DNA of 64,000 nucleotides from Nitrospirota bacterium (GTDB taxonomy: Bacteria; Nitrospirota; Nitrospiria; Nitrospirales; Nitrospiraceae), in NCBI GenBank assembly GCA_002737345.1, contig NSIK01000019.1, forward strand, positions 1 to 64,000, in the 5' to 3' direction. Under the pieces are notes generated by a model. That model was not told the origin of the DNA. It worked only from the letters and a program-made list of their open reading frames with translations, and ran no database searches. Position numbers and translations under genes: made by a program. Shown in pieces: positions 2,641 to 49,153 of this stretch; positions within the stretch are counted from its first letter, which is position 1; every line of letters starts with the position of its first letter.

Positions 2641-2694
2641 TTTTCAGCTCTCAGCCTTCAGCAGTGAAGAACTGACTGCTGATGGCTATCCTTG
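2641..2694. repeat. Heptanucleotide-period intergenic repeat, locus 1
   Basis: The sequence steps in units of seven: GCTCTCA, then GCCTTCA, then GCAGTGA. It then runs in the opposite sense as TGACTGC followed by TGATGGC. The two halves are imperfect reverse complements and could fold as a hairpin. The right half overlaps the end of the minus-strand gene at 2686. It belongs to the same family as several other gaps in this window. Confidence 0.7.
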
Positions 2695-2934
2695 CAGCTC
2701 ATCCTGTACCAGGTCTTCGGTCTCCGGCATCCCGTAGGCCACGTATTTGGCGTAGGAGAGATAGATCATCGCGCTGTCTCTCATGGCCTTGGAGCCTTGA
2801 GACAAACGGAAGACTTGCTCGGGACTGTTGGCGGGAGCCGCACCCATCGTTTCCACATGGCTCTGGAGGAGTAGGGTGAACCGCTCCATCGAGTTCTCGA
2901 CTTCTTTGTAGGCCAATAAAATTGCGTCTGTCAT
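2686..2934 (-). CDS. Small conserved-looking protein of unknown function
   Basis: I do not recognise this 82-residue protein. The start at 2934 is preferred because AGGAGGAC lies just upstream on the minus strand; a longer reading frame to 2955 has no such site. The product looks all-helical and soluble, with a segment reading AYKEVENSMERFTLLLQSH and another reading AMIYLSYAKYVAYG. It has no cysteine and no signal peptide. It is transcribed divergently from the methyltransferase gene at 2967, with only 32 bases between them. Its stop codon lies inside a heptanucleotide repeat and faces the terminator at 2595-2634, which may serve both directions. Confidence 0.75.
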   Translation of the reverse strand: MTDAILLAYKEVENSMERFTLLLQSHVETMGAAPANSPEQVFRLSQGSKAMRDSAMIYLSYAKYVAYGMPETEDLVQDELQG

Positions 2935-2966
2935 GGTTGTCCTCCTAATCACCATCAGCTTACACT

Positions 2967-4178
2967 ATGCCCATGCAACCCTTCAACGAGCAGAAGTCAT
3001 CAAGCCCGTCACCGCTGGTGGTGAAGATCTTATCAAAGGTACCGTGTGAGCGGGACCTTCAGGGTGAGGCCTTGGCCCAGGCAGTCCTGAACCTGTCACG
3101 TTTGTTTACGACCGCGCGAGCCACCTTAGCTCCAGGCTATCTGGATGATCCGGCTCACGCCGCCGCCTATCGGGCCTATTTCCTCCCTGTGAACCTCTCC
3201 AAGGTCCAGGTTCTATTGGACGAACTGCCGCGTGACAATGTCGCGGGAGAGGCGGGTCGACCCATGACAGTGCTAGACCTCGGTTGTGGCCCAGGGACAG
3301 GAAGTTTGGCCCTGCTGGATTGGTTGTGGTATCGCAATCCGGAGCGGGCGAAGTCTCTGTCTGTGTTGGCAGCCGACTCCTCTCCGGGGCCACTGCAGGA
3401 GACGAAGAAACTATGGGACGCCTATTGCCAGGAGGTTGGGATCGCCAGCACAGGTCTTCGGTGTCTCGGAGGCAATCTGGAACATCCGCACAAGGGCGAT
3501 CTCGGCAAGCAGATTGCGAAGGGCGGACCCTATGACCTCATCATCATGGCAAACTGCCTCAATGAGTTGTTTGTGACCGCGTTCGATCCCCCGGCAGAGA
3601 GGGCTGCGGTTGTCGGCCAGCTTCTGCCGTTTCTCGCGCCGCACGGCACTATCATGATCGTGGAGCCGGCGCTCCGGCAGACGGCCAGAGCCTTACACCA
3701 AGTACGCAATCACTTGCTCAAGCAGGGCCGCTGCACGGTATATAGCCCTTGCCTGCATGAGGGAGCCTGTCCCGCGTTAGACCATCCTGACGATTGGTGT
3801 CACGAGGAGCGGCCCTGGCAGGCGTCGCCTGCGATTGCCGCTATCGATCAGAAGGTGGGGTTTATCAAAGACGCGCTGAAGTTTTCCTATCTACTTTTAC
3901 GCACAGACGGCCGTACCATTGTGCCGCGGAGCCCCCAGACTTTTCGGGTTGTGAGCGAGTTGCGGGAATTGAAGGGCGATACTAGGGCCTGGCTCTGTAA
4001 CGAACTGGGCCGGTTGGAGATTGGGCGGCTTGATCGAGCCGCCTCCGCGACTAATGCGGCATTGGAAGTCTGTCATCGCGGAGCGATTATTCAGCTCGAT
4101 GGGGTAAGGCGGAAAGAAGGATCGACGCTGGAACGGATACCGGCAGAGGGAACAGTGGAGATAATCCGATCGGCCTAA
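2967..4178 (+). CDS. Rsm22-like SAM-dependent methyltransferase
   Basis: The 403-residue protein has a class I methyltransferase core: motif I is VLDLGCGPGTGSLALLDWL near residues 95-113, and an NCLNELF segment lies near residue 195. A cysteine cluster follows (SPCLHEGACPALDHPDDWC near residues 253-271), typical of the Rsm22 family of mitochondrial and bacterial small-ribosomal-subunit methyltransferase-like proteins, where it may bind a metal or Fe-S cluster. The molecular target in bacteria is not settled. Two start ATGs occur (2967 and 2973); neither has a strong ribosome binding site of its own. The gene is monocistronic and ends 6 bases before the convergent gene at 4185. Confidence 0.8.
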   Translation: MPMQPFNEQKSSSPSPLVVKILSKVPCERDLQGEALAQAVLNLSRLFTTARATLAPGYLDDPAHAAAYRAYFLPVNLSKVQVLLDELPRDNVAGEAGRPMTVLDLGCGPGTGSLALLDWLWYRNPERAKSLSVLAADSSPGPLQETKKLWDAYCQEVGIASTGLRCLGGNLEHPHKGDLGKQIAKGGPYDLIIMANCLNELFVTAFDPPAERAAVVGQLLPFLAPHGTIMIVEPALRQTARALHQVRNHLLKQGRCTVYSPCLHEGACPALDHPDDWCHEERPWQASPAIAAIDQKVGFIKDALKFSYLLLRTDGRTIVPRSPQTFRVVSELRELKGDTRAWLCNELGRLEIGRLDRAASATNAALEVCHRGAIIQLDGVRRKEGSTLERIPAEGTVEIIRSA

Positions 4179-4184
4179 GTTCAG

Positions 4185-4379
4185 CTAATCCGCTTCCGGT
4201 TCCGAGTTCCCATGCTGATGCGAGACCCGGTCTTCGTCGAACATTTCGGCCATCTCCGCGGCGATCATGTCGCGGTCGTTGGGCACTGACACGAGCGGGA
4301 TCTCTTTTCTCGTTTTTGGGGCACTCTCGGCTGCGGGAGATTCCGGGGTCTTGGCTGGAGTCTTTGGTGTGTCAGTCAT
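4185..4379 (-). CDS. Small acidic Pro/Ala-rich protein of unknown function
   Basis: This 64-residue protein starts at the ATG at 4377-4379. A longer reading frame upstream runs antisense into the next gene and is probably spurious. The N-terminal half is rich in Thr, Pro, Ala and Lys (MTDTPKTPAKTPES) and probably disordered. The C-terminal half is acidic and helical (IAAEMAEMFDEDR). There is no signal peptide or metal site. It is on the same strand as, and downstream of, the Zn-ribbon protein at 4418-4777, with a 38-base gap, so the two may be cotranscribed. No function can be assigned. Confidence 0.55.
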   Translation of the reverse strand: MTDTPKTPAKTPESPAAESAPKTRKEIPLVSVPNDRDMIAAEMAEMFDEDRVSHQHGNSEPEAD

Positions 4380-4417
4380 AGCTGAAGTATACACGAAAAT
4401 AAGGGTGAAAAGGGGAG

Positions 4418-4777
4418 TTACTCGAAAGATTCCAGGGATGAGCGCTCCGGGAATGTTCCCTGGCACGTCGTACAGGTCAGGAAGTAGATGGATTCCCGGA
4501 CGGACATGGTGATGCGGAAATTGAGGCTCACGCCCCGCTGGTTGCAGGTCGGGCAGGACATTTCTTTGAGTCGGTAGGGAATGTCCGGCTGGGTGCGCTG
4601 ATAGAACTCCATGTCCGTATAGATGGGGAAGCTGTAATGGCACTTCCTGCAGACGCCGCGCCATTCACCATCCGATTGCATGAACCGCCGATCAACTCCA
4701 AAGCTCGACTCCTTGCAAATGGCGCAGGAGACGGTTTTCAGTCTGGTTTCGACTTCTTCAACGGTCAGGCTGGGCAT
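4418..4777 (-). CDS. Zinc-ribbon-like protein of unknown function
   Basis: The 119-residue protein has four CxxC pairs: CAIC near residue 18, CRKC near 43, CPTC near 74 and CTTC near 101. This is the pattern of two stacked zinc ribbons. Between them is a hydrophilic segment (YQRTQPDIPYRLKEM). There is no signal peptide, so the product is likely cytoplasmic and may bind nucleic acid or protein. An AAGGAGCC ribosome binding site lies just upstream of the ATG at 4777. I do not recognise a named family. It is followed on the same strand by the small acidic protein. Confidence 0.75.
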   Translation of the reverse strand: MPSLTVEEVETRLKTVSCAICKESSFGVDRRFMQSDGEWRGVCRKCHYSFPIYTDMEFYQRTQPDIPYRLKEMSCPTCNQRGVSLNFRITMSVRESIYFLTCTTCQGTFPERSSLESFE

Positions 4778-4909
4778 CGAGGCGGCTCCTTATGCGAGGT
4801 TCTGCAACCGCATGTGCTCAGTATAGCGTTTCTGCGGAAGTGATCGCAACGGGATAAGATTCAGACGCCTTCCTGAACTGGCGAAGGCGCTGCCGATAGT
4901 GAGGTTACG

Positions 4910-5365
4910 ATGCATTTTATTACCGAGACCCTCCTGGTTGGGAATATCAACGACATAAGCCAGCCGCCGCCACAGACCACTGTGGTGCTGCAGGTCGCGG
5001 CTGAGTTCACGGGACAGCCGCCCAGACGGGTGTTATCTGGTAGGATTCCCTTTTCTGAGTACGCCGAGGCTGAGCCGCTATTGTTGGATCAGGCGGTGAG
5101 CTGGGTTGAGCGACATCATCCGGGCAATCAGGTGATCGTCTGCTGCCGAGCCGGGATGGGCAGGTCTGTATCGGTAGTGATGGCCTATCTCTACTGTGTG
5201 CAGGGCATGACCTATGCCGAGGTGCTGAAGTTGGTGATGGCGCGACGTCCCGGCGCCACCCCTCTTCCCAATCTCGAAGAAGCCGTCGCGCAGGTTCGTC
5301 TGCTTCGCGAGGCTCGCGTAAAGGACAAGCAGGGCTCCGCGCCGCACCCAGCCTCTGGCGCGTAA
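4910..5365 (+). CDS. Dual-specificity/tyrosine phosphatase-like protein
   Basis: The 151-residue product has the Cx5R phosphatase loop VCCRAGMGRS with Cys79 and Arg85. The residue before the catalytic Cys, usually His, is Cys78 here. The following helix (MAYLYCVQGMTYAEVLKLV) matches dual-specificity phosphatases. The N-terminus (ITETLLVGNINDI) also fits the family. Asp51 of the usual general-acid loop is replaced by a stretch reading FSEYAEAE, so the acid is uncertain. It is followed 22 bases later by the mutM-like gene and may share a transcript. Its substrate is unknown; a phosphoprotein or small phosphoester are both possible. Confidence 0.8.
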   Translation: MHFITETLLVGNINDISQPPPQTTVVLQVAAEFTGQPPRRVLSGRIPFSEYAEAEPLLLDQAVSWVERHHPGNQVIVCCRAGMGRSVSVVMAYLYCVQGMTYAEVLKLVMARRPGATPLPNLEEAVAQVRLLREARVKDKQGSAPHPASGA

Positions 5366-5387
5366 CTCGATACAAGGATTTCTTTCG

Positions 5388-6227
5388 ATGCCGGAATTAC
5401 CAGAAGCAGAATCTGTTGCCAGGCAGATACGAGCCCACCTTCTCGGCGCGCAGTTGAACGATTGCGTGGTGGGGCGGGCAGATATTGTCCGAGAAGGGCT
5501 ATCTACGCTCTCCTGGTACCGTGGCGCGATGCTGGAAGATGTGGAGCGATACGGCAAGAGTGTGGCGATGGGGTTTAGGAATGAGGGTGAGCTCAGGTAT
5601 ATCGTTGCGGAGCTTGGCATGACGGGGCTGCTGCTCTTTCATGCCACGCAGACGAGACATCCTCAGCATGTGCATGTCCGTTTGTCCTTTACGGGGAGGC
5701 GTGAGTCGGAGCTGCGCTATTGGAATCCCCGGCGGTTCGGGCGGATGTCCTTGCTCGATCGGGCGGGACTCGATGCCTATCGCGCTCGTCGTTTCGGGGT
5801 CGATCCCCTTACCGTGCCGCGCGAAGAGTTCGTGCGTCTCTTGCAATCCAGGCGAGGCCGGCTGAAACCCCTTTTGATGCATCAGCAAGTCATCGCGGGA
5901 ATCGGGAATATTTATGCGAACGAAATTCTCTTCCGTGCCAGGCTCCATCCGAACCGCGAGGTGCAACGGCTGCGTGAGGCGGCGGTCATTGGATTGTACG
6001 ACATGATGCAATCCGTGTTGCGCGAGGCGATTGATTGTGGCGGCTCTAGCGTCAAGGATTTCTTTGCGCCGGATGGCACAGAGGGCCAATATAAGAATCG
6101 CCATCTCGTCTACGGCAAAGAAGGTCAACCCTGTCCCAACCGCTGCGGGAGGGTAATTCGCCGTCTCCAAAGCGAACGCAGCTCATTTTTTTGTCCATTT
6201 TGCCAGACTAATCGTCTTTCAGGATAA
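5388..6227 (+). CDS. mutM: Formamidopyrimidine-DNA glycosylase / endonuclease VIII family
   Basis: The 279-residue protein begins MPELPEAESV, giving the catalytic Pro2 and Glu3 after removal of Met. A lysine in RYGKSVAM near residue 57-60 matches the conserved beta-hairpin Lys. The helix-two-turn-helix is seen in GIGNIYANEILFRARLHP near residues 166-183. A C-terminal zinc finger reads CPNRCGRVIRR followed by FFCPFCQ. The first pair is CxxxC rather than the usual CxxC, a small oddity. The enzyme removes oxidised purines such as 8-oxoguanine and nicks the DNA. MutM is favoured over Nei because of overall similarity, but the two are hard to separate by eye. Confidence 0.9.
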   Translation: MPELPEAESVARQIRAHLLGAQLNDCVVGRADIVREGLSTLSWYRGAMLEDVERYGKSVAMGFRNEGELRYIVAELGMTGLLLFHATQTRHPQHVHVRLSFTGRRESELRYWNPRRFGRMSLLDRAGLDAYRARRFGVDPLTVPREEFVRLLQSRRGRLKPLLMHQQVIAGIGNIYANEILFRARLHPNREVQRLREAAVIGLYDMMQSVLREAIDCGGSSVKDFFAPDGTEGQYKNRHLVYGKEGQPCPNRCGRVIRRLQSERSSFFCPFCQTNRLSG

Positions 6228-6365
6228 TTCGTATTTTGGTCTCGTGAGGCCTTCCGGGCAGTATGTTGCGCATTGCTCTATGGTTTCAATCGTTTAGGCC
6301 GGCGTGTCTTCCGTCGTCCTTCTTGATAGGTCTTTTGAACCAACGGGCTTAGTCCCTCTGGCATA

Positions 6366-6394
6366 TTGAGTCATCCAACTGATTTCGTTAGAAT
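6366..6394 (+). promoter_or_regulatory. Predicted sigma-70 promoter of the aclBA operon
   Basis: TTGAGT at 6366-6371 and TAGAAT at 6389-6394 are separated by 17 bases. The aclB start is about 50 bases downstream, preceded by GAAGGAG at 6432-6438. The rest of the 6228-6445 gap shows no other obvious element. Confidence 0.6.
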
Positions 6395-6445
6395 CCTCCT
6401 CCTTTACAATTTGTTCCTCACCATTCTGTCTGAAGGAGTGACGTC

Positions 6446-7645
6446 ATGGCGAAGGTGCTCGAAGGTCCCGGGATGGGGCTGATGAAAAAGTGGGGTATCA
6501 CGGTCCCTAACTATGTCGTCGTCACCTCGGTTGACGAACTGGCGAAACTCGGCCAAGCCAATGAATGGCTCAAGAAATCCAAGCTGGTCGTGAAGGCGCA
6601 TGAAGCGCTCGGCTCCCGGTTCAAGCTCGGCCTGGTCAAGGTCGATCTGGATTTCAAGGGGGCGGAATCGGCGGCCAAGGAGATGCTGGGTCGCCAGGTT
6701 GGCAGCATCACCGTCACGCAAGTGATCGTGTCGGAAATGATTCCGCACACGGGAGAATATTATTGCGCCGTGAAGTCTACCCGCGAAGGGACGGACATTC
6801 TGGTCGCTAATTGCGGCGGCATTGAAGTCGAATCGAATTGGGAGCGGGTGAAGCGTCTGGCCCTGGAGATCGGGCAGCAACCTTCGGCCGATGCGCTTGA
6901 GAAAGTGGCCAAGGAGGCAGGCTTTACCGGCCCATTGGTCAAGAAGATGGCCGACTTTGCCGGCAAGATGTTTATCTGCTTCGACAGTGAAGATGCGCAG
7001 TATCTGGAAGTGAATCCTGTCGTCCTGCGCGAGCAGGATGGTGAGTTGATCGCCTTAGATGCGGTGACATTGCTGGATGGCGATGCCAAGTTCCGCCATC
7101 CCGATTGGAACTTCGCCTTTGCCGCAGAATTCGGCCGCGCCTATTCCAAACATGAGATAGAAGTCATGGCGGTCGATTCCAAAATCAAGGGCTCGGTCAA
7201 GTTTATCGAGATCCCTGGCGGAGACACGGCCATGCTCCCAGCCGGCGGCGGTGCCAGCGTGTATTATTCTGATGCAGTCGTCGCCCGCGGCGGCAAGCTC
7301 GCGAACTATGCCGAGTATTCCGGCGATCCGCCGGACTGGGCGGTCGAAGTCCTGACCGACAAGGTCTGCTCGTTGCCCGGGATCAAGAACATCATCGTCG
7401 GCGGGGCGATTGCCAACTTTACCGACGTGAAAAAGACGTTCGGTGGCATCATTAATGGATTCCGCAAGGCGAAGTCCGAGGGGAAACTCAAGGGCGTCAA
7501 GATCTGGGTGCGTCGCGGTGGCCCACGTGAGAAGGAAGGGCTCGATGCGATGCGCGCGCTCAAGGACGAAGGATTCGACATCAACGTCTTCGATCGCAAC
7601 ACGCCGCTGACCGATATCGTCGACAAGGCACTTCAAAACAAGTGA
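6446..7645 (+). CDS. aclB: ATP-citrate lyase beta (small) subunit
   Basis: The 399-residue protein resembles the succinyl-CoA synthetase beta subunit: an ATP-grasp domain in the N-terminal half (MAKVLEGPGMGLMKKWGI, VVKAHEALGSRFKLGLVKV, LEVNPVVL near residues 188-195) and a Rossmann-like C-terminal domain (GAIANFTDVKKTFGG, KIWVRRGGPREKEGLDAM). With AclA it cleaves citrate to acetyl-CoA and oxaloacetate at the cost of ATP and CoA. This is the step that makes the TCA cycle run reductively. The start is supported by GAAGGAG eight bases upstream. It is separated from aclA by an 83-base gap containing a repeat hairpin. Confidence 0.95.
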   Translation: MAKVLEGPGMGLMKKWGITVPNYVVVTSVDELAKLGQANEWLKKSKLVVKAHEALGSRFKLGLVKVDLDFKGAESAAKEMLGRQVGSITVTQVIVSEMIPHTGEYYCAVKSTREGTDILVANCGGIEVESNWERVKRLALEIGQQPSADALEKVAKEAGFTGPLVKKMADFAGKMFICFDSEDAQYLEVNPVVLREQDGELIALDAVTLLDGDAKFRHPDWNFAFAAEFGRAYSKHEIEVMAVDSKIKGSVKFIEIPGGDTAMLPAGGGASVYYSDAVVARGGKLANYAEYSGDPPDWAVEVLTDKVCSLPGIKNIIVGGAIANFTDVKKTFGGIINGFRKAKSEGKLKGVKIWVRRGGPREKEGLDAMRALKDEGFDINVFDRNTPLTDIVDKALQNK

Positions 7646-7706
7646 TCAGTGATACATGATCGGGAAACACAATTTCCCATCACGGATCACTCGTCACCCA
7701 TCACAG
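7642..7706. repeat. Heptanucleotide-period inverted repeat between aclB and aclA (locus 2)
   Basis: After the aclB stop the sequence steps as GTGATCA, GTGATAC, ATGATCG, then GGGAAA. After a 5-base turn it returns as TTTCCC, ATCACGG, ATCACTC, GTCACCC, ATCAC. The two arms are reverse complements of the same GTGATNN unit, so the mRNA could form a long imperfect hairpin with a GGGAAA/TTTCCC apex. Confidence 0.8.
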
Positions 7707-7728
7707 CTTTCGAAAAGGGGATATCCCG

Positions 7729-9549
7729 ATGAGCATCCTGGCGAATAAAGATACCTATGTGGTCATTCAGGGCGGCGTCGCCGGCGTCAACGCTGCGCAC
7801 CGGATGGCCGAGTTTTGCTACCTGATCAAACGCTCGCTGAACGTGCTGGCCTTCGTCTATCCGCCTGACGCAGGCAAGAGCCATGAGATCCCCTATGGCA
7901 GCGGCTTAGTGGCCGTTCCCATTTATAAGACTGTGGCGGAAGCCACCAAGAACCATCCCCAGATCAATACCAGTCTCGTCTATATCGGCGCGGATCGGGC
8001 CATGAAGGGCGGGATGGAAGCTTTAGACGATACGCATATTAAGGTGGTCTCGATGATCACCGAAGGTGTGCCGGAGAAGGACGCTAAGATCCTGGGCCGC
8101 CATGCGAGCAAGCTCGGGAAGGTCTTCAACGGCCCTTCGTCGATCGGGATCGTATCGGCCGGCTCCTGCCGGTTGGGTGTCATCGGCGGCGCCTTCGATA
8201 ATCTGGTGCTCTCGAAGCTCTATCGCGAAGGATCGTTCGGGGTCATCACCAAGTCCGGCGGCCTCTCCAATGAAATCATCTGGATCTGCTCGCAGTTTGC
8301 CGACGGCATCACCACAGCCATCGGGATCGGCGGCGACGCCTATCCGGGCACCGACTATGTCAGCTACCTCGAAATGTTCGAAAACGATCCGCAGACGAAA
8401 GCGGTTGTCATCGTCGGTGAAATGGGTGGCGATCTCGAAGAGCGGGCAGCCGAGTGGTACGGAGCTAAGAAGCGGCGGGTGAAGTTGATGGCCGTCGTCT
8501 CCGGTTTCTGCCAGGAAAGTTTGCCGAAGGGTATGAAGTTTGGCCACGCAGGCGCGAAGGAAGGGTTGAAGGGCGAAGGATCGGCCCGTGCCAAGTCCGA
8601 TGCGCTCAAGAATGCCGGGGCGATTGTGCCGGCGACGTTCGGTGCCTTGGGGCCTGCGATCAAAGAAGCCTATCAGGAGATGTTGAAGTCCGGTTTGGTC
8701 AAGGAGCCGGTTGAGCCGGCCTCATTGCCGAAGTTACCGAAGACGGTCGAAGAGGCGATGAAGGCAGATGAGGTCATGGTCGCGCCGCTGATCCGCACGA
8801 CCATCAGCGACGATCGGGGCGACGAACCCTGCTACGACGGATACCCTGCTTCCGAGCTCATCAATAAGGGCTACGAGATCCCTCACATCGTGGGGCTCTT
8901 GTGGGACAAGCGACTCATTTCCAAGCAGGAAGCGGAAATCATCAAGCGAATCATGATGCTCTCAGCCGATCATGGCCCCTGCGTCAGCGGCGCCTTGGGG
9001 ACGATCATCGCGGCCTGCGCCGGGATCGGGATGTCCCAGTCGGTAGCGGCAGGTTTGATCATGATCGGTCCCCGCTTCGGCGGCGCCGTGACCGATGCGG
9101 GCCGCTACTTCAAGTATGCCGTCGACAATAAGATGACGGTGGATGAATTCCTGGTGTACATGAAGAAGAACCATGGCCCTGTGCCTGGGATCGGCCATCG
9201 CGTCAAGAGTTTGCGTAATCCGGACAAGCGGGTGAAGGAGCTGGTCGGGTACGTTAAGAGTTTGAATACGAAGACCCCCTGCCTGGACTTTGCGCTCGAA
9301 GTGGAAAAGGTTACCTCGGTAAAGAAGGACAACTTGATCCTGAACGTGGATGGCACGATGGCGGCGGTGCTTGTCGATATAGGATTCCCGGTCGACAGCT
9401 TGAACGGCTTCTTCATCCTCTCGCGCACGATCGGGTTGATCGGGCATTGGGTGGATCAGAAGCGTCAGGCCAGCCGTTTGATCCGGCTGTTCGATTATCT
9501 CGTCAACTATGCGGCGCCCAAACGGCGTGAAGTGCCGCCGCTCAAGTAG
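7729..9549 (+). CDS. aclA: ATP-citrate lyase alpha (large) subunit
   Basis: The 606-residue protein has an N-terminal succinyl-CoA synthetase alpha-like part. The phosphorylated-histidine loop reads KFGHAGAKEG near residues 266-275. A C-terminal citrate-synthase-like domain includes GPRFGGAVTDAGRYF and GIGHRVKSLRNPDKR near residues 484-498. Together with AclB it carries out ATP-dependent citrate cleavage. A clear ribosome binding site (AAAGGGGA) precedes the ATG. It is downstream of aclB and upstream of aconitase on the same strand. The separate-subunit architecture is that of bacterial reductive TCA organisms, not the fused animal enzyme. Confidence 0.95.
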   Translation: MSILANKDTYVVIQGGVAGVNAAHRMAEFCYLIKRSLNVLAFVYPPDAGKSHEIPYGSGLVAVPIYKTVAEATKNHPQINTSLVYIGADRAMKGGMEALDDTHIKVVSMITEGVPEKDAKILGRHASKLGKVFNGPSSIGIVSAGSCRLGVIGGAFDNLVLSKLYREGSFGVITKSGGLSNEIIWICSQFADGITTAIGIGGDAYPGTDYVSYLEMFENDPQTKAVVIVGEMGGDLEERAAEWYGAKKRRVKLMAVVSGFCQESLPKGMKFGHAGAKEGLKGEGSARAKSDALKNAGAIVPATFGALGPAIKEAYQEMLKSGLVKEPVEPASLPKLPKTVEEAMKADEVMVAPLIRTTISDDRGDEPCYDGYPASELINKGYEIPHIVGLLWDKRLISKQEAEIIKRIMMLSADHGPCVSGALGTIIAACAGIGMSQSVAAGLIMIGPRFGGAVTDAGRYFKYAVDNKMTVDEFLVYMKKNHGPVPGIGHRVKSLRNPDKRVKELVGYVKSLNTKTPCLDFALEVEKVTSVKKDNLILNVDGTMAAVLVDIGFPVDSLNGFFILSRTIGLIGHWVDQKRQASRLIRLFDYLVNYAAPKRREVPPLK

Positions 9550-9551
9550 CG

Positions 9552-9587
9552 ACAGTTTTTCATTTTACATTGTCAATTTTAAACTGA
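9552..9587. repeat. Heptanucleotide-period repeat between aclA and aconitase (locus 3)
   Basis: The 45-base gap reads in steps of seven (TTTTTCA, TTTTACA, TTGTCAA, TTTTAAA) and is bounded by CAGTTT and AAACTG, which are exact reverse complements. It is A/T rich, unlike the flanking genes. Confidence 0.6.
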
Positions 9588-9594
9588 GGTTACT

Positions 9595-11841: not shown

Positions 11842-11852
11842 CAACGAGCTAG

Positions 11853-14096
<2,244 letters not shown>

Positions 14097-14099
14097 AAA

Positions 14100-14163
14100 A
14101 GCTGTTAGTGGTTAGCTGTCAGCGATCAGCCAACGGAAAATCCGAAGGCTCAACGCTAATAGC
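14100..14163. repeat. Heptanucleotide-period repeat after icd (locus 4)
   Basis: The gap begins with units GCTGTTA, GTGGTTA, GCTGTCA and GCGATCA. After an A-rich turn a rough reverse complement (TCAACGC, then TAATAGC) follows. It resembles loci 1, 5, 6 and 8 in unit sequence. Confidence 0.75.
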
Positions 14164-14177
14164 AGATTTTGGAGAGC

Positions 14178-14891: not shown

Positions 14892-14896
14892 CACAA

Positions 14897-14961
14897 TGAG
14901 CCGTCAGCGGTCAGCTCTCAGCTTCTAAGATTGAGGCAGAAGCTGATTGCCGAAAGCTAGC
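14897..14961. repeat. Heptanucleotide-period inverted repeat between frdB and frdA (locus 5)
   Basis: Units GCCGTCA, GCGGTCA and GCTCTCA lead into TCAGCTTCT at 14918-14926. Its exact reverse complement AGAAGCTGA lies at 14938-14946 and is followed by TTGCCGA and AAGCTAG. A hairpin with an 11-base loop is therefore possible. The right arm reaches to within 7 bases of the frdA start, so folding could affect translation. Confidence 0.8.
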
Positions 14962-16552: not shown

Positions 16553-16640
16553 CCTACGGCCTATAGCTGATGGTGTATGGCAAGAAGCCCCAACGCTGTC
16601 AGTCTGAGCCATACGCTATTAGCCATCAGCTATCAGTTCT
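16553..16640. repeat. Heptanucleotide-period inverted repeat between frdA and sucC (locus 6)
   Basis: The left arm at 16562-16581 contains TAGCTGATGG followed by TGTATGGC. The right arm, read on the minus strand from about 16637 to 16608, gives TAGCTGATGG, then CTAATAG, then CGTATGGC. The arms thus differ by exactly one extra 7-base unit, which is good direct evidence that the unit length is seven. The arms flank a short spacer and can form a hairpin. Confidence 0.85.
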
Positions 16641-17831: not shown

Positions 17832-17836
17832 GGAAT

Positions 17837-17935
17837 CGGGAGCGACAGAGCTGAGCTCTTTTCCTCTCGGAGCGCACACGATCCGAATGTGCTCGCTTGA
17901 CGCCCGCAGTCAGGGCCTCAGCTCTGCCGCTCCCG
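17837..17935. repeat. Long inverted repeat between sucC and sucD
   Basis: CGGGAGCGACAGAGCTGAG at 17837-17855 pairs with CTCAGCTCTGCCGCTCCCG at 17917-17935. There is one mismatch, which becomes a G-U pair in RNA. Between the arms is a second short hairpin (GCACA with TGTGC, flanked by GAGC-like bases, about 17870-17894). The resulting structure has a 19-bp base and an internal arm. There is no T-run, so it is not a simple terminator. It may be a processing or stability element, an attenuator, or a miniature mobile element. Confidence 0.8.
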
Positions 17936-17987
17936 AAAAGTGCTTTCCGGTCTAGGTGAAAGTGGAAAAGAAAGAAAAGAGGATACG

Positions 17988-21048: not shown

Positions 21049-23551
<2,503 letters not shown>

Positions 23552-28305: not shown

Positions 28306-28408
28306 CCGTGAAACATAAGATGTAGAAAGCAAACGTAGGAAGGTAGGCCTGCCTGGCCCCGAAGCCTTTGACGTCTTACGGATGGCTGACAGCTGATAGC
28401 TTCAGCGC
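28306..28408. repeat. Heptanucleotide-period repeats before the bamD-like gene end (locus 8)
   Basis: The left part steps as CGTGAAA, CATAAGA, TGTAGAA. The right part, from 28381, steps as GATGGCT, GACAGCT, GATAGCT. Thus two unit types seen elsewhere in the window occur here side by side. ACGTCTTACGG at 28371-28381 is the inverse sense of the CGTGAAA type. Confidence 0.65.
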
Positions 28409-31170: not shown

Positions 31171-31292
31171 TGCGCGTAAGGCGTGAAAAGTGCAATGTGA
31201 AGTGTAGCGGCAAGGGCGCAGGGCATGATCGCGCTGCTCCTGCCAAAATGATTCCGTGTCTGTCATCTTTTACGTCTCATGTTTTACGAATG
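31171..31292. repeat. Heptanucleotide-period inverted repeat between DUF47 gene and pit (locus 9)
   Basis: The left arm steps as GCGTAAG, GCGTGAA, AAGTGCA, ATGTGAA. The right arm steps as TTTTACG, TCTCATG, TTTTACG, i.e. the reverse complement of a CGTAAAA unit. The right arm overlaps the first possible start codon of pit at 31279. Confidence 0.75.
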
Positions 31293-39835: not shown

Positions 39836-39888
39836 ACAGGAATCATGGTGAAACCGTTGTATTTTAGAGGACTTCCGTTCCGCATTTC

Positions 39889-39917
39889 TTGACTCGACGC
39901 CAAGGGTCTGGTATACA
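39889..39917 (+). promoter_or_regulatory. Predicted sigma-70 promoter of the shc operon
   Basis: TTGACT at 39889-39894 and TATACA at 39912-39917 are separated by 17 bases. The shc ATG is 115 bases downstream, leaving a leader in which I see no clear structure. Confidence 0.6.
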
Positions 39918-40031
39918 CCTCCGTGCGGGCAATGCGATAAATATGCCGCTCGCCGTTCGAACTTCATGGGCGCAACGCAGAGTCCCTGCGCTGTTCCATC
40001 CTCCTGCATTTTTCCATAGACCAATACGATA

Positions 40032-42212: not shown

Positions 42213-42214
42213 AC

Positions 42215-43039: not shown

Positions 43040-43042
43040 CTG

Positions 43043-43816
43043 ATGGTATCCAATATGGTTAAATGGCTTGGGGCGTTGGTAGTCACGCGTGTGCAGGAGA
43101 TGGGCCGCATGTTGCTGTTTGTCTTGTCGGCCTTTGCCTGGCTGGCAAGGCCTCCCTTCCGGTTTTCTCACATGCTGAAGCAGCTCCATTTCATTGGGTA
43201 TAAATCGACATTCGTGGTGGTCCTGACCGCCGGGTTCACCGGCATGGTCCTCGCGTTGCAAGGCTACTATAGTTTGCGGAAGTTCGGCGCAGAGGGAATG
43301 CTGGGCGCTGCGGTGGCCTTGACCATGATCCGGGAATTGGGGCCGGTGTTGGCCGCTTTGATGGTGACCGCCAGGGCCGGCTCGGCCATGACGGCGGAAG
43401 TCGGCATCATGCGGATTACGGAACAGATCGATGCGCTCGATACCATGGCGATCAATCCGATACAGTATTTGATCGCCCCGAAGCTTGTGGCCGGGTTGAT
43501 CGGGGTGCCGTTGCTCGTGGCCATCTTTGATGTGGTCGGTATCTATGGCGGCTATGTCGCCGGGGTGGATCTGCTGGGAGGCGATGCAGGGTCTTATTGG
43601 AACTCGATTGAGTCGGCCGTGGAATGGAAAGATATCTACGGCGGGATTCTCAAGTCGATCAGTTTCGGGCTGATCATCACCTGGATCTGCTCCTATAAAG
43701 GGTATCATACGCGACAGAGCGCGGAGGGGCTGGGAACGGCTACGACGGAAGCGGTGGTGCTGAGCTCTGTAGTCATTCTGATGTGGGATTATTTTCTTAC
43801 CTCGGTTTTGCTATGA
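43043..43816 (+). CDS. mlaE: MlaE-like lipid ABC transporter permease
   Basis: The 257-residue permease matches the MlaE family: a long conserved stretch IRELGPVLAALMVTARAGSA near residues 94-113 followed by MTAEVGIMRITEQIDAL. About five or six membrane segments are visible. It sits 3 bases after hpnG and overlaps the ATPase gene (ATGA). MlaE with MlaF forms the inner-membrane engine moving lipids between the membranes of Gram-negative bacteria. The start may also be the second Met (43055). The position after hopanoid genes raises the possibility of hopanoid as cargo, but this is inference. Confidence 0.93.
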   Translation: MVSNMVKWLGALVVTRVQEMGRMLLFVLSAFAWLARPPFRFSHMLKQLHFIGYKSTFVVVLTAGFTGMVLALQGYYSLRKFGAEGMLGAAVALTMIRELGPVLAALMVTARAGSAMTAEVGIMRITEQIDALDTMAINPIQYLIAPKLVAGLIGVPLLVAIFDVVGIYGGYVAGVDLLGGDAGSYWNSIESAVEWKDIYGGILKSISFGLIITWICSYKGYHTRQSAEGLGTATTEAVVLSSVVILMWDYFLTSVLL

Positions 43817-44577
43817 CCTCCATGATCAAGCTGATTGGCATCGAAAAGAAGTTAGGTGGGCAGCCGGTGCTGCAAGGGGTGGATCTCTCGATCCCCGTCG
43901 GTAAGCTGACGACCATCATCGGTGGCAGTGGATCGGGAAAGAGCGTGCTCCTCAAGCACATGATCGGGCTTCTGCAGCCTGATCGCGGCGAAGTCTGGAT
44001 CGGCGATGTGGAGATCTCTCGCTTGTCCGGCACGAAGTTGAACGATGTGCGGAGGCGGTTTGCCATGCTGTTCCAGGGCGCAGCCCTGTTCGATTCCCTT
44101 TCCGTTTTTGAGAACGTGGCGTTTCCGTTGCGAGAGAAATTACGGATGAAGGGGCCGGAGGTCACGCGGCGGGTCGAGGAAAAGCTGGCGCAAGTCGAGT
44201 TGGCGGGGATGGGCCACAAGTTTCCCGCCGAATTGAGCGGAGGCATGCGCAAGCGGGCGGGTTTGGCGCGCGCGTTGGTGATGGAGCCGGAGATCATCTT
44301 GTTTGATGAGCCGACAACCGGGCTAGATCCTTTGATGGCGAAATCAATTCATGATTTGATCGTCGCAATGCAACGGCGGTTCGGCTTTACGGCGGTGATG
44401 GTCAGCCATGAAATTCCGGAGATCTTCGCGATTTCCGATTGGGTGGCGATGCTCAGAAACGGCAAGATTGCAGCGATGGCCCCGGCCGACGAGTTCCAGC
44501 AGATTGCCGATCCGGATATTCAAGAATTCATTTCCGTGGGCGGGACAGTGGTCTTGCCAGGATCGCACGTAAGGTGA
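43813..44577 (+). CDS. mlaF: MlaF-like ABC transporter ATP-binding protein
   Basis: The 254-residue ATPase has Walker A GGSGSGKSVLLKH near residues 37-49, the signature LSGGMRKRAGLARAL near 142-156, and Walker B IILFDEPTTGLDP near 162-174. It powers the MlaE permease. The ATG at 43813 overlaps the mlaE stop; a frame beginning at 43783 lies inside mlaE. The C-terminus (ADEFQQIADPDIQEFISV) is typical for MlaF. No MlaB-like STAS gene is found in the cluster, which is a small difference from the E. coli system. Confidence 0.94.
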   Translation: MTSMIKLIGIEKKLGGQPVLQGVDLSIPVGKLTTIIGGSGSGKSVLLKHMIGLLQPDRGEVWIGDVEISRLSGTKLNDVRRRFAMLFQGAALFDSLSVFENVAFPLREKLRMKGPEVTRRVEEKLAQVELAGMGHKFPAELSGGMRKRAGLARALVMEPEIILFDEPTTGLDPLMAKSIHDLIVAMQRRFGFTAVMVSHEIPEIFAISDWVAMLRNGKIAAMAPADEFQQIADPDIQEFISVGGTVVLPGSHVR

Positions 44578-44593
44578 GAGAGGAGTAGTGAAA

Positions 44594-45037
44594 ATGGAAA
44601 AAGCTAAGTTGGAGATCATGGTCGGCTTCTTTGTGCTCATTGGCATTTTGTGCCTCGGGTATCTGTCGATCAAGCTCGGGAAGCTCGAGCTGGTCGGGGG
44701 CGACGTCTATGAAGTCGACGCGCAGTTCAATACAGCCTCGGGGCTCAAGTCCGGGTCGGCCGTTGAAATCGCCGGTGTCGAGGTCGGGCGGGTGCGCGGG
44801 ATTACGCTTAGCGGGGACCGCGCGATGGTGAAGCTGGCGGTCAACAATACCGTCAAGCTTTATACGGACACCATTGCCTCGATCAAGACTCGTGGAATCA
44901 TCGGAGAAAAGTTTTTGGCTCTGTCTCCCGGCGGGGGAGGCGACCCGCTCAAGCCCGGTGAAACGATCCGCGATACGGAATCTGGCCTCGATCTCGAGGA
45001 ACTGGTCAGCCAGTATGTGCATGGGAAAGTGAACTGA
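44594..45037 (+). CDS. mlaD: MlaD-like MCE-domain substrate-binding protein
   Basis: The 147-residue protein has a single N-terminal membrane anchor (LEIMVGFFVLIGILCLGYLS) and one MCE domain (VDAQFNTASGLKSGSAVEIAG near residues 39-59). This is the periplasmic ring subunit of Mla systems. The ATG at 44594 has GAGAGGAG about 9 bases upstream, better than the GTG at 44588. It follows mlaF by 16 bases and precedes the mlaC-like gene by 51 bases. Its length is close to E. coli MlaD (183 residues) but shorter. Confidence 0.93.
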   Translation: MEKAKLEIMVGFFVLIGILCLGYLSIKLGKLELVGGDVYEVDAQFNTASGLKSGSAVEIAGVEVGRVRGITLSGDRAMVKLAVNNTVKLYTDTIASIKTRGIIGEKFLALSPGGGGDPLKPGETIRDTESGLDLEELVSQYVHGKVN

Positions 45038-45088
45038 TAGGCCGGTGACGGGGCTGGATTGGAGGCTCATGTGGGAGGCGATAGGGAG

Positions 45089-45736
45089 ATGAAGCGATCT
45101 GCCGTCACGCAAGTGCAGAGATGGAACTGGGGTAAGCTCGCAAGCGGAGCGATCTGTGCGCTCGCGTTGTTTGGGTGGGTGTCCGCTCAGCCAGCAGTAG
45201 CTGGTGGCCCAACTGAGGCCATGAAAATGACCATTGATGAGGTGCTCGGAATCATTCAGGACAAGGAGCTCAAACAGGCGCCGAGAGCGGAAGAGCGCCG
45301 GAAGCGTTTGGAGCAGGTGGTCGAGAATCGGTTTGACTATCAAGAAATGTCGCGGCGCGCGCTCGGAGCTCCCTGGAGTACGCTTGAGGATAAGGATAAG
45401 CAGGAATTCGTCGCACTGTTCAGGACGCTGCTGGCCAATTCTTATGCGGATAAGGTTGAGACCTATTCAGGCGAGGGCGTGCAGTACCTCAACGAACGGA
45501 CGGAAAAAGACTATGCCGAGGTGCGAACGAAAATGCTCACCGGGAAGACCGAAATTCCTCTCGATTACCGGCTGTTCAACAAGGGTGTGGAGTGGCGGGT
45601 CTACGACGTCGTGGTGGACGGGGTTAGCTTGGTGAGTAATTACCGTGGGCAGTTCTCGAAGATCCTCCGCTCCTCGACCTTCCCTGATTTACTAGAACAG
45701 CTGCGTAAGAAGTCCGATAAGACTAAGGCTCCGTAA
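45089..45736 (+). CDS. mlaC: MlaC/HpnM-like periplasmic lipid-binding protein
   Basis: The 215-residue protein has a signal peptide (residues about 1-38, ending near QPAVAGG) and the Tol-tolerance/MlaC family fold, with RFDYQEMSRRALGAPWSTL-like sequence near residues 79-97 and the C-terminal VYDVVVDGVSLVSNYR near 171-186. It would shuttle lipid across the periplasm. HpnM, a family member in other hopanoid producers, is known to be hopanoid linked. An ATG at 45089 is preferred over an upstream TTG at 45059. It lies 17 bases before the barrel gene. Confidence 0.9.
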   Translation: MKRSAVTQVQRWNWGKLASGAICALALFGWVSAQPAVAGGPTEAMKMTIDEVLGIIQDKELKQAPRAEERRKRLEQVVENRFDYQEMSRRALGAPWSTLEDKDKQEFVALFRTLLANSYADKVETYSGEGVQYLNERTEKDYAEVRTKMLTGKTEIPLDYRLFNKGVEWRVYDVVVDGVSLVSNYRGQFSKILRSSTFPDLLEQLRKKSDKTKAP

Positions 45737-45753
45737 CTCGTTTCAGGAATCCC

Positions 45754-46956
45754 ATGATCAGCCTGCGCGGCCTCACCGGTGTTCTGTTCGTGTTGTGTGC
45801 GGCGAGTCTTATCGCGCTGCCAGAGGAGGCCGCAGCCGGCGTCGAATATTTTCCGGTTCCTTCCGTGTCGAGCACTCGCAACGACGGGAGTGACGCCGGC
45901 CTGCTTGTGCCAATCCTGATCACGGATCCGGACGGAGAGTTGAAGTATATCGTCGCCCCGATGATCATTCGGAACTCCATTGTCGGGACGCGCGGCGCGC
46001 TCAATGTATTTCGCTACGAGCCGGGCGGGCGGGAGATGCGATTTATCGGCTCTTTCACGGAGCGGATCGAACGCAAGGTGGTGTTTAGCTATGCCGATCC
46101 GGCGTTCGCGCAGGGCCGGTATTCGCTGAATTTCGGCGCCTCGTTTTTCAAAAACGCCACCTCGCGGTTTTTTGATCTCGGGCAAGCCACGCAGGAGTCG
46201 AAGGAAACGAACTATACGGCGCGTGAAACTAGGCTGAACTGGCGGTTCGGGGTCTATGCAAACGAAGTGACGCAGATTTCCGTCGGGCAGCGGTTTCGCG
46301 ACGTGCAGCTGCAAAGAGGCGGGACCGGTCTTCCCTTCACCGGCGATCGATTCCCTCGGGTGGATGGGGTGCAGGGCGAGTCGCTTATTCTGGGGCATCG
46401 GGCGACGTTCTATTACGATACGCGCAACAATCTGGTCACGCCGACCGACGGGATGGCCGTGACGGCCTATGCAGAGCTCAACCAAAGTCTCCGTAACGGC
46501 GATCATCCCGTCTACTCCCGCTATGAGATCGAGGTGAAGAAGTTGTTCCCCAGCGAATCGAAGCGCGCCATCCTGGTTGTGCGCGGGGATCTGCAAGCGA
46601 CGATCGGGTCGCAAGTCCCGTTCTTTGAGCAAAGTTCGCTGGGGGGGCAAAACAATCTGCGCGGATTCGGCGGCGATCGTTTCATCGACAAGCACCTCGT
46701 GTCACTCAGCATCGAAGAGCGGATTCACCTGGCCCGCGCAAAGGTGGCGGGTGTCAACGCGGACTTCGAGATTGCCCCGTTTCTGGATACGGGGCAGGTC
46801 TTCAGCGACTATAAAAAAGTCAGTTTCCATAGCTACAGATTCACTCCTGGTGTCGGATTCCGCGGCGTCGTTCGGCCTAATGTCGTCGGTCGCGTCGACT
46901 ATGGCTATAGCCGCGAGGGGGGAGCGATCTTTGCGGGGCTGGACTTCCCCTATTGA
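45754..46956 (+). CDS. Omp85/BamA-family outer-membrane beta-barrel without POTRA domains
   Basis: The 400-residue protein has a signal peptide (about residues 1-28, LIALPEEAAAGV) and then a beta-barrel with the Omp85 motif GGQNNLRGFGGDRF near residues 296-309. It ends in an aromatic residue (GLDFPY), typical of outer-membrane barrel ends. There is no room for POTRA domains, so it is a bare barrel of the D15/surface antigen type. It is the last gene of the mla-like unit. In E. coli the outer-membrane end of the Mla route is MlaA with porin, which is not seen here, so this barrel may replace it. That role is inferred from position. Confidence 0.82.
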   Translation: MISLRGLTGVLFVLCAASLIALPEEAAAGVEYFPVPSVSSTRNDGSDAGLLVPILITDPDGELKYIVAPMIIRNSIVGTRGALNVFRYEPGGREMRFIGSFTERIERKVVFSYADPAFAQGRYSLNFGASFFKNATSRFFDLGQATQESKETNYTARETRLNWRFGVYANEVTQISVGQRFRDVQLQRGGTGLPFTGDRFPRVDGVQGESLILGHRATFYYDTRNNLVTPTDGMAVTAYAELNQSLRNGDHPVYSRYEIEVKKLFPSESKRAILVVRGDLQATIGSQVPFFEQSSLGGQNNLRGFGGDRFIDKHLVSLSIEERIHLARAKVAGVNADFEIAPFLDTGQVFSDYKKVSFHSYRFTPGVGFRGVVRPNVVGRVDYGYSREGGAIFAGLDFPY

Positions 46957-47166
46957 TCGACAGTCGGAGAAGGCGGGCCGCGCGCTCCCAATTCGAGCCA
47001 TTTGTGGCGTAGGTTTCCGGCTGACGCTAGCTAACCACTTGACAATACATGACTTTTGTGTGAAGCTGCCCCTGCTAGCATCTATGCTGCTATGCTGCTG
47101 GGCCATACTTATTTGAGTTCAGTTCGTGGTGCGAGACTCCTGCACCTACGCAAAGGAGCATCTGCT

Positions 47167-49116
47167 ATGTCGATTTTGAAGACCATTCAAAGCCCTGCTG
47201 ATCTGAAACGGCTAGCACCGGCGCAATTTCCTGCCTTGTGCCAGGAGTTGCGGGAACAGATTATCGGCGTGGTCTCTAACGTCGGAGGCCACCTGGCCTC
47301 GAATCTTGGAGTGATTGAACTGACGGTCGCCCTGCACTATCTGCTCGATACGCCCAAGGACAAGATCGTCTGGGACACCAGCAATCAAGCCTATGCCCAT
47401 AAGCTGCTCACTGGCCGCCGGGAACAATTCCACACGCTTCGGCAGTATGGGGGGATGAGCGGTTTCGCTAAGCGCGAGGAGAGCGTCTACGACACGTTCA
47501 ACGCGGGCCATGCCGGCACGGGCGTATCTGCCGCCTATGGCATGGTTGCAGCTCGTGAACAGTTGGCGCAGAAACATAAAGTGGTCTGTGTGGTCGGGGA
47601 TGGCGCCATGACGGCCGGGATGACGCTAGAAGGTCTGCACCATGCAGGCGGCCTGGACAAAGATTTCCTGGTGATTTTGAACGACAACCAAATGTCTATT
47701 TCGAAGAACGTGGGCGCCATTTCCTCCTATTTAAACCGGACCTTCACCGGAGAGTTTTACCTCAAGATGCGGGAAGAGACGGGGCAATTATTGGGGAAGA
47801 TTCCCCACATCGGGCATGACATGCAGAAGTGGGCTCGTCGCGCTGAAGAGTTGGCCAAGGGCGCGATCCTTCCGGGGCTGCTCTTTGAAGAGCTGGGGTT
47901 CCGGTATGCGGGACCGATTGACGGACATAATTTTGAACATCTGCTCCCCACCTTGGAGAATGTGCTGAAGATGAAGGGGCCGGTGCTGCTCCATGTCATT
48001 ACGAAGAAAGGGTTGGGCTACGAGCCGGCGGTCAAGAATCCCGTGTGGTTTCATGCCTGTCCTCCCTTTGTGCGGGAGACCGGAGTGCCTGCGAAAAAAG
48101 CGGCCCGCCCATCCTATACGCAGATTGCCATTGAATCATTGGTGAAGCTGGCCCGAGTGGACAAGCGGATTGTCGCGATTACAGCTGCCATGTGCGAAGG
48201 AACTGGCCTGAATATTTTCGAGAAAGAGTTTCCGGACCGAATTTATGACGTGGGCATTGCCGAACAGCATGCGGTGACCTTTGCCGCTGGTCTTGCGACG
48301 CAGGGTCTTCATCCCGTGGTGGTGTTGTATTCCACGTTTTTGCAGCGGGCCTACGACCAGGTGGTGCATGACGTCGCGACGCAGAATCTACCGGTAACCG
48401 TCTGTATCGATCGCGGCGGGTTGGTGGCAGAAGACGGGACGACGCATCACGGAGCCTTCGATTATGCGTTCCTGCGGCATGTCCCGAACATGGTCGTGAT
48501 GGCGCCGAAAGATGAAAATGAGTTGCAGCATATGATGAAAACCTGTGTCCAGCACGACGGGCCTACCTCAGTGCGGTATCCGCGGGGATTGAGCCTGGGT
48601 GTCACGATGGATCAGGAGCCGAAGGCCTTACCGATGGGGAAGGCCGAGCTGCTGCAGGAAGGTACGGAGGTCGCGATCATCGCGATCGGCGTGCCGGTCT
48701 GGCATGCGGTGACGGCGGCGAAACGGCTTGCGCAGGAAGGCATTTCCACTGCGGTCGTGAATGCGCGTTTTGTGAAGCCGCTGGATCAGGACTTGATCGT
48801 GGAGGTGGCGAAGCAGGTTCGCTACGTGGTGACGGTGGAAGAGGGCTGTAAGATGGGCGGGTTCGGGTCTGCGGTCCTCGAAGCTCTGTCTGACAGAGGC
48901 GTCACGGATGTGAGGACGAAGGTGCTGGGTTTGCCGGACCGGTACATCGAACAGGGACCGCAGGATTTCCTGCGCGAATGGTATGGGCTGACCGCAGAAG
49001 GCATTTATCAGAGCGTGAAGGAGTTGATCGGCACGGCGACGGCTCGCGCGCGCGAGCAGCGCACGCTCGCGTCCTTGGTCGATCGGTTGCCGCATGGAGA
49101 CGAGCAGGGCAGCTAG
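47167..49116 (+). CDS. dxs: 1-deoxy-D-xylulose-5-phosphate synthase (variant active site)
   Basis: The 649-residue thiamine-diphosphate enzyme condenses pyruvate and glyceraldehyde 3-phosphate, the first step of the MEP pathway. Family motifs are present: GDGAMTAGMTLEGLHHAG near residues 144-161, LNDNQMSISKNVGA near 171-184, YAGPIDGHN near 256-264, and DVGIAEQHAVTFAAGLATQG near 361-380. The conserved His of the GHQ motif (His49 in E. coli) is Asn73 here (WDTSNQAYAHK). AAGGAGC precedes the ATG; the frame from 47056 is not similar upstream. ispG follows 52 bases later. Whether the change affects activity is unknown. Confidence 0.92.
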   Translation: MSILKTIQSPADLKRLAPAQFPALCQELREQIIGVVSNVGGHLASNLGVIELTVALHYLLDTPKDKIVWDTSNQAYAHKLLTGRREQFHTLRQYGGMSGFAKREESVYDTFNAGHAGTGVSAAYGMVAAREQLAQKHKVVCVVGDGAMTAGMTLEGLHHAGGLDKDFLVILNDNQMSISKNVGAISSYLNRTFTGEFYLKMREETGQLLGKIPHIGHDMQKWARRAEELAKGAILPGLLFEELGFRYAGPIDGHNFEHLLPTLENVLKMKGPVLLHVITKKGLGYEPAVKNPVWFHACPPFVRETGVPAKKAARPSYTQIAIESLVKLARVDKRIVAITAAMCEGTGLNIFEKEFPDRIYDVGIAEQHAVTFAAGLATQGLHPVVVLYSTFLQRAYDQVVHDVATQNLPVTVCIDRGGLVAEDGTTHHGAFDYAFLRHVPNMVVMAPKDENELQHMMKTCVQHDGPTSVRYPRGLSLGVTMDQEPKALPMGKAELLQEGTEVAIIAIGVPVWHAVTAAKRLAQEGISTAVVNARFVKPLDQDLIVEVAKQVRYVVTVEEGCKMGGFGSAVLEALSDRGVTDVRTKVLGLPDRYIEQGPQDFLREWYGLTAEGIYQSVKELIGTATARAREQRTLASLVDRLPHGDEQGS

Positions 49117-49123
49117 TGCAAGG

Positions 49124-49153
49124 CAAAATAAATAAGTGAAAAGGTAAAAGTAC
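49124..49153. repeat. A-rich heptanucleotide-period stretch between dxs and ispG (locus 10)
   Basis: The gap steps as AAATAAG, TGAAAAG, GTAAAAG. It is short and one-armed, so it is the weakest member of the family. Confidence 0.45.

Follow-up and report, generated by a model that had tools for sequence, protein, structure and literature searches.

Degenerate, often inverted seven-base repeat arrays in the intergenic gaps of a Nitrospira-type bacterium

Seven-base arrays between the genes of the window

The DNA analyzed (the window) comprised 64,000 nucleotides, positions 1 to 64,000 of the forward strand of contig NSIK01000019.1 (GenBank assembly GCA_002737345.1), from a member of the Nitrospiraceae whose genome (G000) is available as 1.67 Mb in 38 contigs and is ~92% complete. 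The succinyl-CoA ligase beta protein of the window was 92-96% identical to several Nitrospira or Nitrospirae homologues, which marks the genome as Nitrospira-type. Genes w10 to w17 form a reductive tricarboxylic acid (rTCA) cycle block, in which NCBIfam matches above the cut-off were obtained for aconitase, monomeric isocitrate dehydrogenase and sucC, and matches below it for citryl-CoA lyase-like, succinate-CoA ligase-like and fumarate reductase-like flavoprotein sequences. Tandem seven-base units (heptad arrays) occur beyond chance in the intergenic gaps of this and other Nitrospira-type genomes, and many are followed by an inverted copy. The unit copies are degenerate, often with about five fixed and two free letters, and fall short of near-perfect repetition; exact arrays exist in some relatives (G018). 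Gap edges are approximate because genes were called with a home-made finder.

Ten stretches named in a sequence-only reading of the window were tested with 10 bases of flank on either side, using 400 dinucleotide-preserving shuffles for lag 7 and 60 for inverted symmetry. The stretches had been picked by eye and the p values apply to single stretches, so the genome-wide test described below weighs more. The AGCNNTC word was found as an array with a short inverted partner at 2639..2687 (array 2639-2662; lag-7 p=0.007; hairpin 2653-2687, p=0.016; predicted to fold), and as hairpins at 14104..14163 (left array 14104-14130; lag-7 p=0.002; hairpin 14115-14163, p=0.016; predicted to fold) and 14899..14958 (left array 14899-14923; lag-7 p=0.002; hairpin 14906-14958, p=0.033). 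A short AGCNNTC run at 28385..28401, with the word on the minus strand, contained an exact minus-strand match to AGCNNTCAGCNNTCAGC (lag-7 p=0.007; hairpin p=0.344). Immediately 5' of the first array a strong terminator-like hairpin with a T-run was noted at ~2588-2635. The GTGATNN hairpin at 7642..7704 (lag-7 p=0.005; hairpin 7642-7697, p=0.016) starts at the stop codon of the gene that ends at 7645; its left arm reads GTGATCA GTGATAC ATGATCG and, beyond the apex, its right arm reads ATCACGG ATCACTC GTCACCC ATCAC. At 16553..16636 a GCCATNA / GCTATNA hairpin fills the gap from a stop codon to the start of sucC (lag-7 p=0.002; strict hairpin p=0.066); by eye, the same word was also present in L048, L053, L058, L059, L071, L083 and L091. 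An A+T-rich, TTTTACA-like array with weak inverted symmetry lies at 9545..9594 (lag-7 p=0.005; hairpin p=0.049), where the lag-7 score was 14 in the relative L024 vs 9 in the window. The degenerate CGTGAAA hairpin at 31174..31292 (left arm 31174-31205, TTTTACG-like right arm to ~31292) gave a lag-7 p of 0.005 and a strict hairpin p of 0.295; RNAfold pairs both of its arms. Weaker cases were a GTGATNN-like stretch at 22320..22336 (lag-7 p=0.040; hairpin p=0.541) and a candidate at chance level at 49134..49150 (lag-7 p=0.102; hairpin p=0.557). One short array outside the ten, GTTGCACGTTGCACATT at 51701..51779, had a lag-7 score of 8, for which no p value was obtained.

The claim that the ten named gaps step in sevens thus held for eight (p<=0.007 each), the gap at 22318 being weak and that at 49124 at chance. 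Inverted symmetry, proposed as a shared tendency, reached p<=0.05 in five of the ten (2641, 7642, 9552, 14100 and 14897); the gap at 16553 lay just above this, and those at 22318, 28306, 31171 and 49124 were not significant with the strict aligner. The sequence-only reading was judged right on a period shared by loci that differ in their unit and on inverted symmetry. That nearly every gap of the rTCA block carries such sequence was a fair description (5/7 gaps from w10 to w17), but there is no special link to the block, since the elements occur across the genome sample and the genus.

Period, hairpin layout and change of word

The own-genome sample covered 463 kb of G000 and contained 309 gaps with a total length of 48 kb. 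Matches at lags 7, 14 and 21 exceeded those of shuffled sequence (z = 6.4, 4.9 and 5.0), and the lag-7 excess, predicted by the sequence-only reading, was present both in the window (z 4.9) and in the sample outside it (z 5.1). Coding control segments of equal lengths had a lag-7 deficit (z -7.2); the arrays are thus mainly intergenic. The gaps also had elevated values at lags 3, 4, 6 and 9 (z 7.9, 4.9, 3.2 and 3.6), those at multiples of three probably because of missed coding sequence. A local score of at least 9 was reached in 24/309 gaps for lag 7, compared with a mean of 1.3 gaps in shuffles, in 18/309 for lag 14, and in at most 4 for every other lag from 4 to 15.

Lag spectra of relatives and of other phyla were computed from gaps of up to 500 bases. 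The lag-7 z was 17 in gaps of Nitrospira relatives and 5.5 in deeper Nitrospirales loci (104 gaps), but in the latter lags 6 and 8 were also up (7.2 and 6.7). No lag-7 excess was seen in two small samples from other phyla (z -1.8 in 60 gaps, mostly Planctomycetota, and 0.8 in 57 gaps). Samples of ~200 kb per genome (463 kb for G000) gave scores of at least 10 in 14/298 gaps of G000, 9/128 of G001, 7/128 of G012, 9/109 of G019 and 10/111 of G024, and in 1/117 and 0/121 gaps of G090 and G150, which belong to other genera of the same family.

The common layout is a left arm made of heptads of a word W, an apex, and a right arm that is the reverse complement of W in register. Hairpin scores of at least 10 were found in 76/93 heptad gaps from the own-genome sample and relatives vs 162/514 gaps without heptads (gaps of up to 400 bases); in a separate test 56/101 arrays had an inverted partner in the same gap. 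Complementarity between the arms of 72 elements was 0.77 at shift 0, a value favored by the alignment procedure, 0.58 at shifts of 7 and 0.47-0.49 at shifts of 14 in either direction, and 0.20-0.27 at all remaining shifts between -16 and 16. Letters that vary from unit to unit agreed across the arms at 416/729 positions (0.571; 95 elements); when the variable letters of the right arm were permuted and the best of five registers chosen again, the mean was 0.416 and the maximum of 300 was 0.456.

In 72 co-directional elements the hairpin started a median of 4 nucleotides past the stop codon (within 12 nucleotides in 59/72) and ended a median of 17.5 nucleotides before the next start. No T-run followed the hairpin in any of the 72, which rules out intrinsic terminators, and known RNA families were ruled out as well, the only Rfam match at gathering score in the window being a tRNA. 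At first the elements had seemed restricted to co-directional gaps (87 co-directional, 3 convergent, 3 divergent), but this arose because one operon had been sampled repeatedly in many relatives, and the idea was dropped after samples from five genus genomes were examined. In these, convergent and co-directional gaps carried arrays at equal rates (8/125 vs 38/509, p=0.85), while divergent gaps were poorer at a score of at least 10 (3/140 vs 46/634 others, p=0.021) and did not differ significantly at 9 or above (8/140 vs 59/634, p=0.19).

All 25 genus genomes searched, among them that of the window, contained exact matches to AGCNNTCAGCNNTCAGC; control patterns gave 0 or 1 match per strand. Outside the family, AGCNNTCAGCNNTCAGC occurred in 7/16 genomes of the same order, in low counts except in G036 and G031. 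With up to one mismatch, CGTGAAACGTGAAACGTGA was found in 30/32 genus genomes. In contrast, TCAGCACTCAGCAC had 58 copies in G019, yet was present in just 18/148 genomes of the phylum.

Orthologous gaps were compared between the window and 52 loci holding at least part of the block (L024-L072, L083, L091 and L097), with 35, 35, 31, 34, 45, 50 and 42 rows per gap, the window included (range 31-50). In the w10-w11 gap, read by eye, GTGATNN was seen in the window and L028; GTGCTGA in L024, L025, L038, L040 and L045; AGCNNTC in L026, L033, L044 and L048; GGACTGA in L031 and L057; GATGAAC in L053 and L071; and GTCACNN in L032. Eight loci had no word and gaps of 40-44 bases, and still other states were seen as well. 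When 26 of the 35 rows were scored by eye and unclear rows set aside, parsimony required 11 word changes over the 26 taxa, compared with a shuffled mean of 15.8 and minimum of 12, so that words carry some phylogenetic signal yet change often. At least six words were counted by eye in the w13-w14 gap. The w15-w16 gap was 12 bases long in L034 and 15 in L032 vs ~80-110 in several relatives; among close relatives, L033 had a 144-base hairpin of another type and L044 a GGACTGA-like heptad hairpin. Change of word and presence or absence were a far stronger signal at orthologous gaps than indels. Since many words share one layout and replace one another at orthologous gaps, the process can be studied apart from the sequence it acts on.

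Origin and maintenance of the hairpins

About an even chance is given to the reading that these are degenerate heptanucleotide arrays, of which many have acquired an inverted duplicate. Slippage and template switching would create and remodel them, and they would be tolerated next to the ends of genes. Units of seven would be gained and lost through replication slippage. A second arm could be written when the nascent strand switches template on a hairpin, and could later be re-copied from the first; such inverted duplication would leave an imperfect hairpin extending from a stop codon to the next ribosome site, or lying between two gene ends. Selection may act mainly by purging such DNA from promoters, so that what remains adjoins gene ends. 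Slippage with template switching explains why the arrays have a period, why their arms are in register and alike, and why no bias toward RNA pairing is seen. There are hints that the heptad gaps are shaped more by errors in DNA copying than by a function in RNA.

The alternative that the hairpins work as RNA is considered unlikely. A hairpin past the stop codon would protect or insulate the messenger, or lower translation of the upstream gene as close repetitive extragenic palindromic (REP) sequences do; interruptions at each seventh base would shield the stem from double-strand nucleases, and because any word would serve, words could drift. The position of the elements just past the stop codon and before the next start favors this, as do a layout retained while words change and fold energies below those of shuffles (mean z -2.45; z below -2 in 37/60 elements, these being the first 60 of the 94). 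Most elements lie within the distance at which REP sequences act, so an effect on RNA is possible; PMC12306157 cites effects on translation of REPs within 16 nucleotides of the stop codon. Where a stem is kept as RNA, G·U pairs are expected to exceed A·C on the sense strand. The 94 co-directional heptad elements had GT:AC mismatches of 101:100, and sense and antisense folds did not differ in energy (51 vs 43, p=0.40); because of this equality in both respects, no selection for RNA pairing was seen. The non-heptad hairpins (n=216) leaned slightly to the sense strand (GT:AC 225:195; energy p=0.04). Gaps containing masked bases, of which there were two in G024 and one in G000, were left out of the mismatch test and later tests, and kept in the counts of seven- and nine-base arrays and in the word listing. 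The symmetry of mismatches and folds argues for an origin at the DNA level, or for neutral decay after origin, and the equal rates in convergent and co-directional gaps also stand against a function in RNA.

It is slightly less likely still that each word is a hairpin family resembling REPs or miniature inverted-repeat transposable elements (MITEs), which a transposase spreads in trans and which later decays, the heptads being an incidental feature of its build. Words common to different loci and species would fit, as would the short w15-w16 gaps (12-15 bases) of L034 and L032 and the existence of a nine-base sister family with a conserved apex in 15/25 genomes searched. A dispersed element would also explain the order of the arms, which is near-fixed for each word (see below), but leaves the absence of a common core unexplained: heptad loci differ in their apex and variable letters, and near-identical copies are rare. 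Only 4/50 heptad gaps had a within-genome match of at least 40 bases at 85% identity or more, in part from other repeats in the gap, which rules out recent copy-and-paste as the main source. A Y1 transposase (PF01797) was present in 11/25 genomes and none was found in the ~92% complete genome of the window, so dependence on this enzyme was ruled out. An unsystematic inspection by eye of a few short gaps brought no target duplication to notice.

Several observations weigh against slippage with template switching. It leaves the number seven and the order of the arms unexplained; plain template switching does not predict a fixed order, which fits common descent or constraint. Among pairs of arms the order was 5:0 for CGTGAAA, 9:0 for GTGCTGA, 6:0 for GGACTGA, 4:0 for TTATGGC, 2:0 for GTCAATG, 1:0 for AAGTGGC, 13:0 for a nine-base word and 7:2 for GTGATNN; two further words had no arm pairs in this count. 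The AGC pattern with one mismatch allowed was mixed (23:12), probably through additional matches to the GTGCTGA word; hand counts of pairs within 110 bases, among the matches listed, gave 23:0 for the exact three-unit AGC and 6:0 for CGTGAAA. Many loci and many species share the same words, 25/50 heptad gaps had some within-genome match at E<1e-3, and the nine-base version with its conserved apex resembles a dispersed family. Slippage also predicts seven-base indels. Indels of 7 or 14 bases made up 5/24 distinct indels of at least 5 bases in heptad gaps (36 pairs) vs 3/31 in other gaps (103 pairs), end gaps being counted, and this enrichment was not significant (Fisher p=0.28); few recent events are available because the relatives are different species. 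Finally, the controls of the mismatch test were weak: 18 terminator-like hairpins gave GT:AC of 4:0, and a tRNA control with 23 GT and no AC was probably uninformative, as the program may mark allowed pairs only.

The base skew of the arrays also follows their position in the gap. G-rich arrays were nearer the left gap edge and C-rich arrays nearer the right (37:16 vs 13:31, p=1e-4, all arrays), more sharply so for arrays of strong skew (24:6 vs 2:18, p=1.3e-6). The trend was the same within each gene direction, mostly without significance singly, and gaps without arrays leaned slightly the opposite way. The left arm was G-rich in 83/111 heptad hairpins; a universal G-rich left arm was rejected, because it fails for left arms with TCAGC (1/18 G-rich vs 82/93 of the rest). 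No edge effect was seen for AGC (9, 10, 7 and 7) in a test that mixes the AGC and GTGCTGA words. The same gene-edge rule is described for Xanthomonas and Nostoc in PMC4692102. Arm order and the edge rule are constraints for any model.

Both are what would be expected if the heptads were written at DNA ends, a proposal that we regard as very unlikely. A self-templated, telomerase-like enzyme would extend both 3' ends of a break within a gap by seven-base units, the ends would be rejoined, and one arm would then be copied from the other; the G-rich strand would run from the gene edge into the gap on both sides, whatever the direction of the genes, and W would be followed by its reverse complement. 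Against it, the AGC word falls outside the G-rich rule, and arrays without a partner show the edge rule as a trend only (p=0.06). If true, the process would be general among bacteria, Xanthomonas and Nostoc included, with the step of seven set by the enzyme. A DNA-binding protein that reads seven-base steps is more improbable still. Words do recur across loci of one genome, as such a protein would require, but they differ between orthologous gaps and between gaps of one genome, and no common core was noticed.

Known heptanucleotide repeats and other repeat forms

Reports of heptanucleotide repeats come from scattered bacteria and mostly concern one word each; no cause is agreed upon. The sequence-only reading had likened the arrays to the heptanucleotide repeats of cyanobacteria, known as STRR, and this likeness was judged right; the arrays are best read as heptanucleotide repeats of a known kind in a degenerate and inverted form. 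An excess of heptamers, inverted pairs and the edge rule are already described elsewhere in PMC4692102 and PMC4679880. Heptanucleotides are the favored unit length in the cyanobacterial repeats and in the long simple sequence repeats of prokaryotes treated by Mrazek (2007), as cited in both, to which the idea of a polymerase footprint as a possible reason for seven is also credited; as described there those repeats are tandem, whereas the Nitrospira elements are degenerate and inverted. The GGGAATC / GGGGA(C/T)T heptamers of Xanthomonas and Nostoc are, according to PMC4692102, over-represented outside genes and preferably between aligned genes. Like the present elements they are intergenic, with some inverted pairs, and have the nearer gene on the 5' side of the repeat whatever its direction. 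Unlike them, they are presented in that source as one G-rich word with quadruplex potential, whereas here there are many words, most without G-runs, and over half of the arrays are partnered. The TAACTGA direct repeats of Beggiatoaceae, cyanobacteria and Bacteroidetes (PMC4679880) likewise lie between genes as short sets of heptamers at numerous loci, but are described as one exact word, mostly just before start codons, with one inverted case vs 169 direct sets; the Nitrospira elements are degenerate, comprise many words, form hairpins and lie nearer the upstream stop codon.

REP palindromes resemble the elements as imperfect hairpins near stop codons (PMC12306157). The elements differ in having many words, a seven-base period and neither a common core nor, in most gaps, near-identical copies, and the window's genome differs in that no Y1 transposase was found in it. 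With a loose definition, in which mismatch gaps of two bases are permitted, a RepRanger table in PMC12306157 counts 3,788 REP candidates in Nitrospira moscoviensis, and these could include heptad-like elements. No description of heptad elements in Nitrospira was found in the titles and abstracts listed by full-text searches of open-licence literature. With many words on one layout, two old questions become testable: why seven, and whether such hairpins are kept by a function in RNA or made by replication.

Nine-base arrays, often inverted (GGTTTGTTT ... AAACAAACC), were seen in G019 (L104-L113) and G024 (L114-L123), and less so in G001 and G012. In G019 they were commoner than seven-base arrays (18 vs 9 of 109 gaps of up to 400 bases, score of at least 10). 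Their apex GGTTGAACGAAACTAACC (up to two mismatches) reached 61 copies per genome where it was present, and was not found in the window's genome at the same stringency; among the heptad elements listed no common apex was seen by eye. A family of ~125 bases (GCAGGATGCTGAAAAAGTCCGCCAGC...) with up to 95% identity occupied several gaps of G001 (L124-L133) and looks like a recent dispersed inverted repeat. The gap 3' of sucC in the window (17832-17939) holds another type of hairpin (GAGCGCACACG ... GTGCTCGC ... CCCGCAGT), which by eye resembles elements in the w15-w16 and w16-w17 gaps of relatives. Within a reading frame at 53658-53721 lies a nine-base (three-codon) tandem repeat, AGCAGCGGC.

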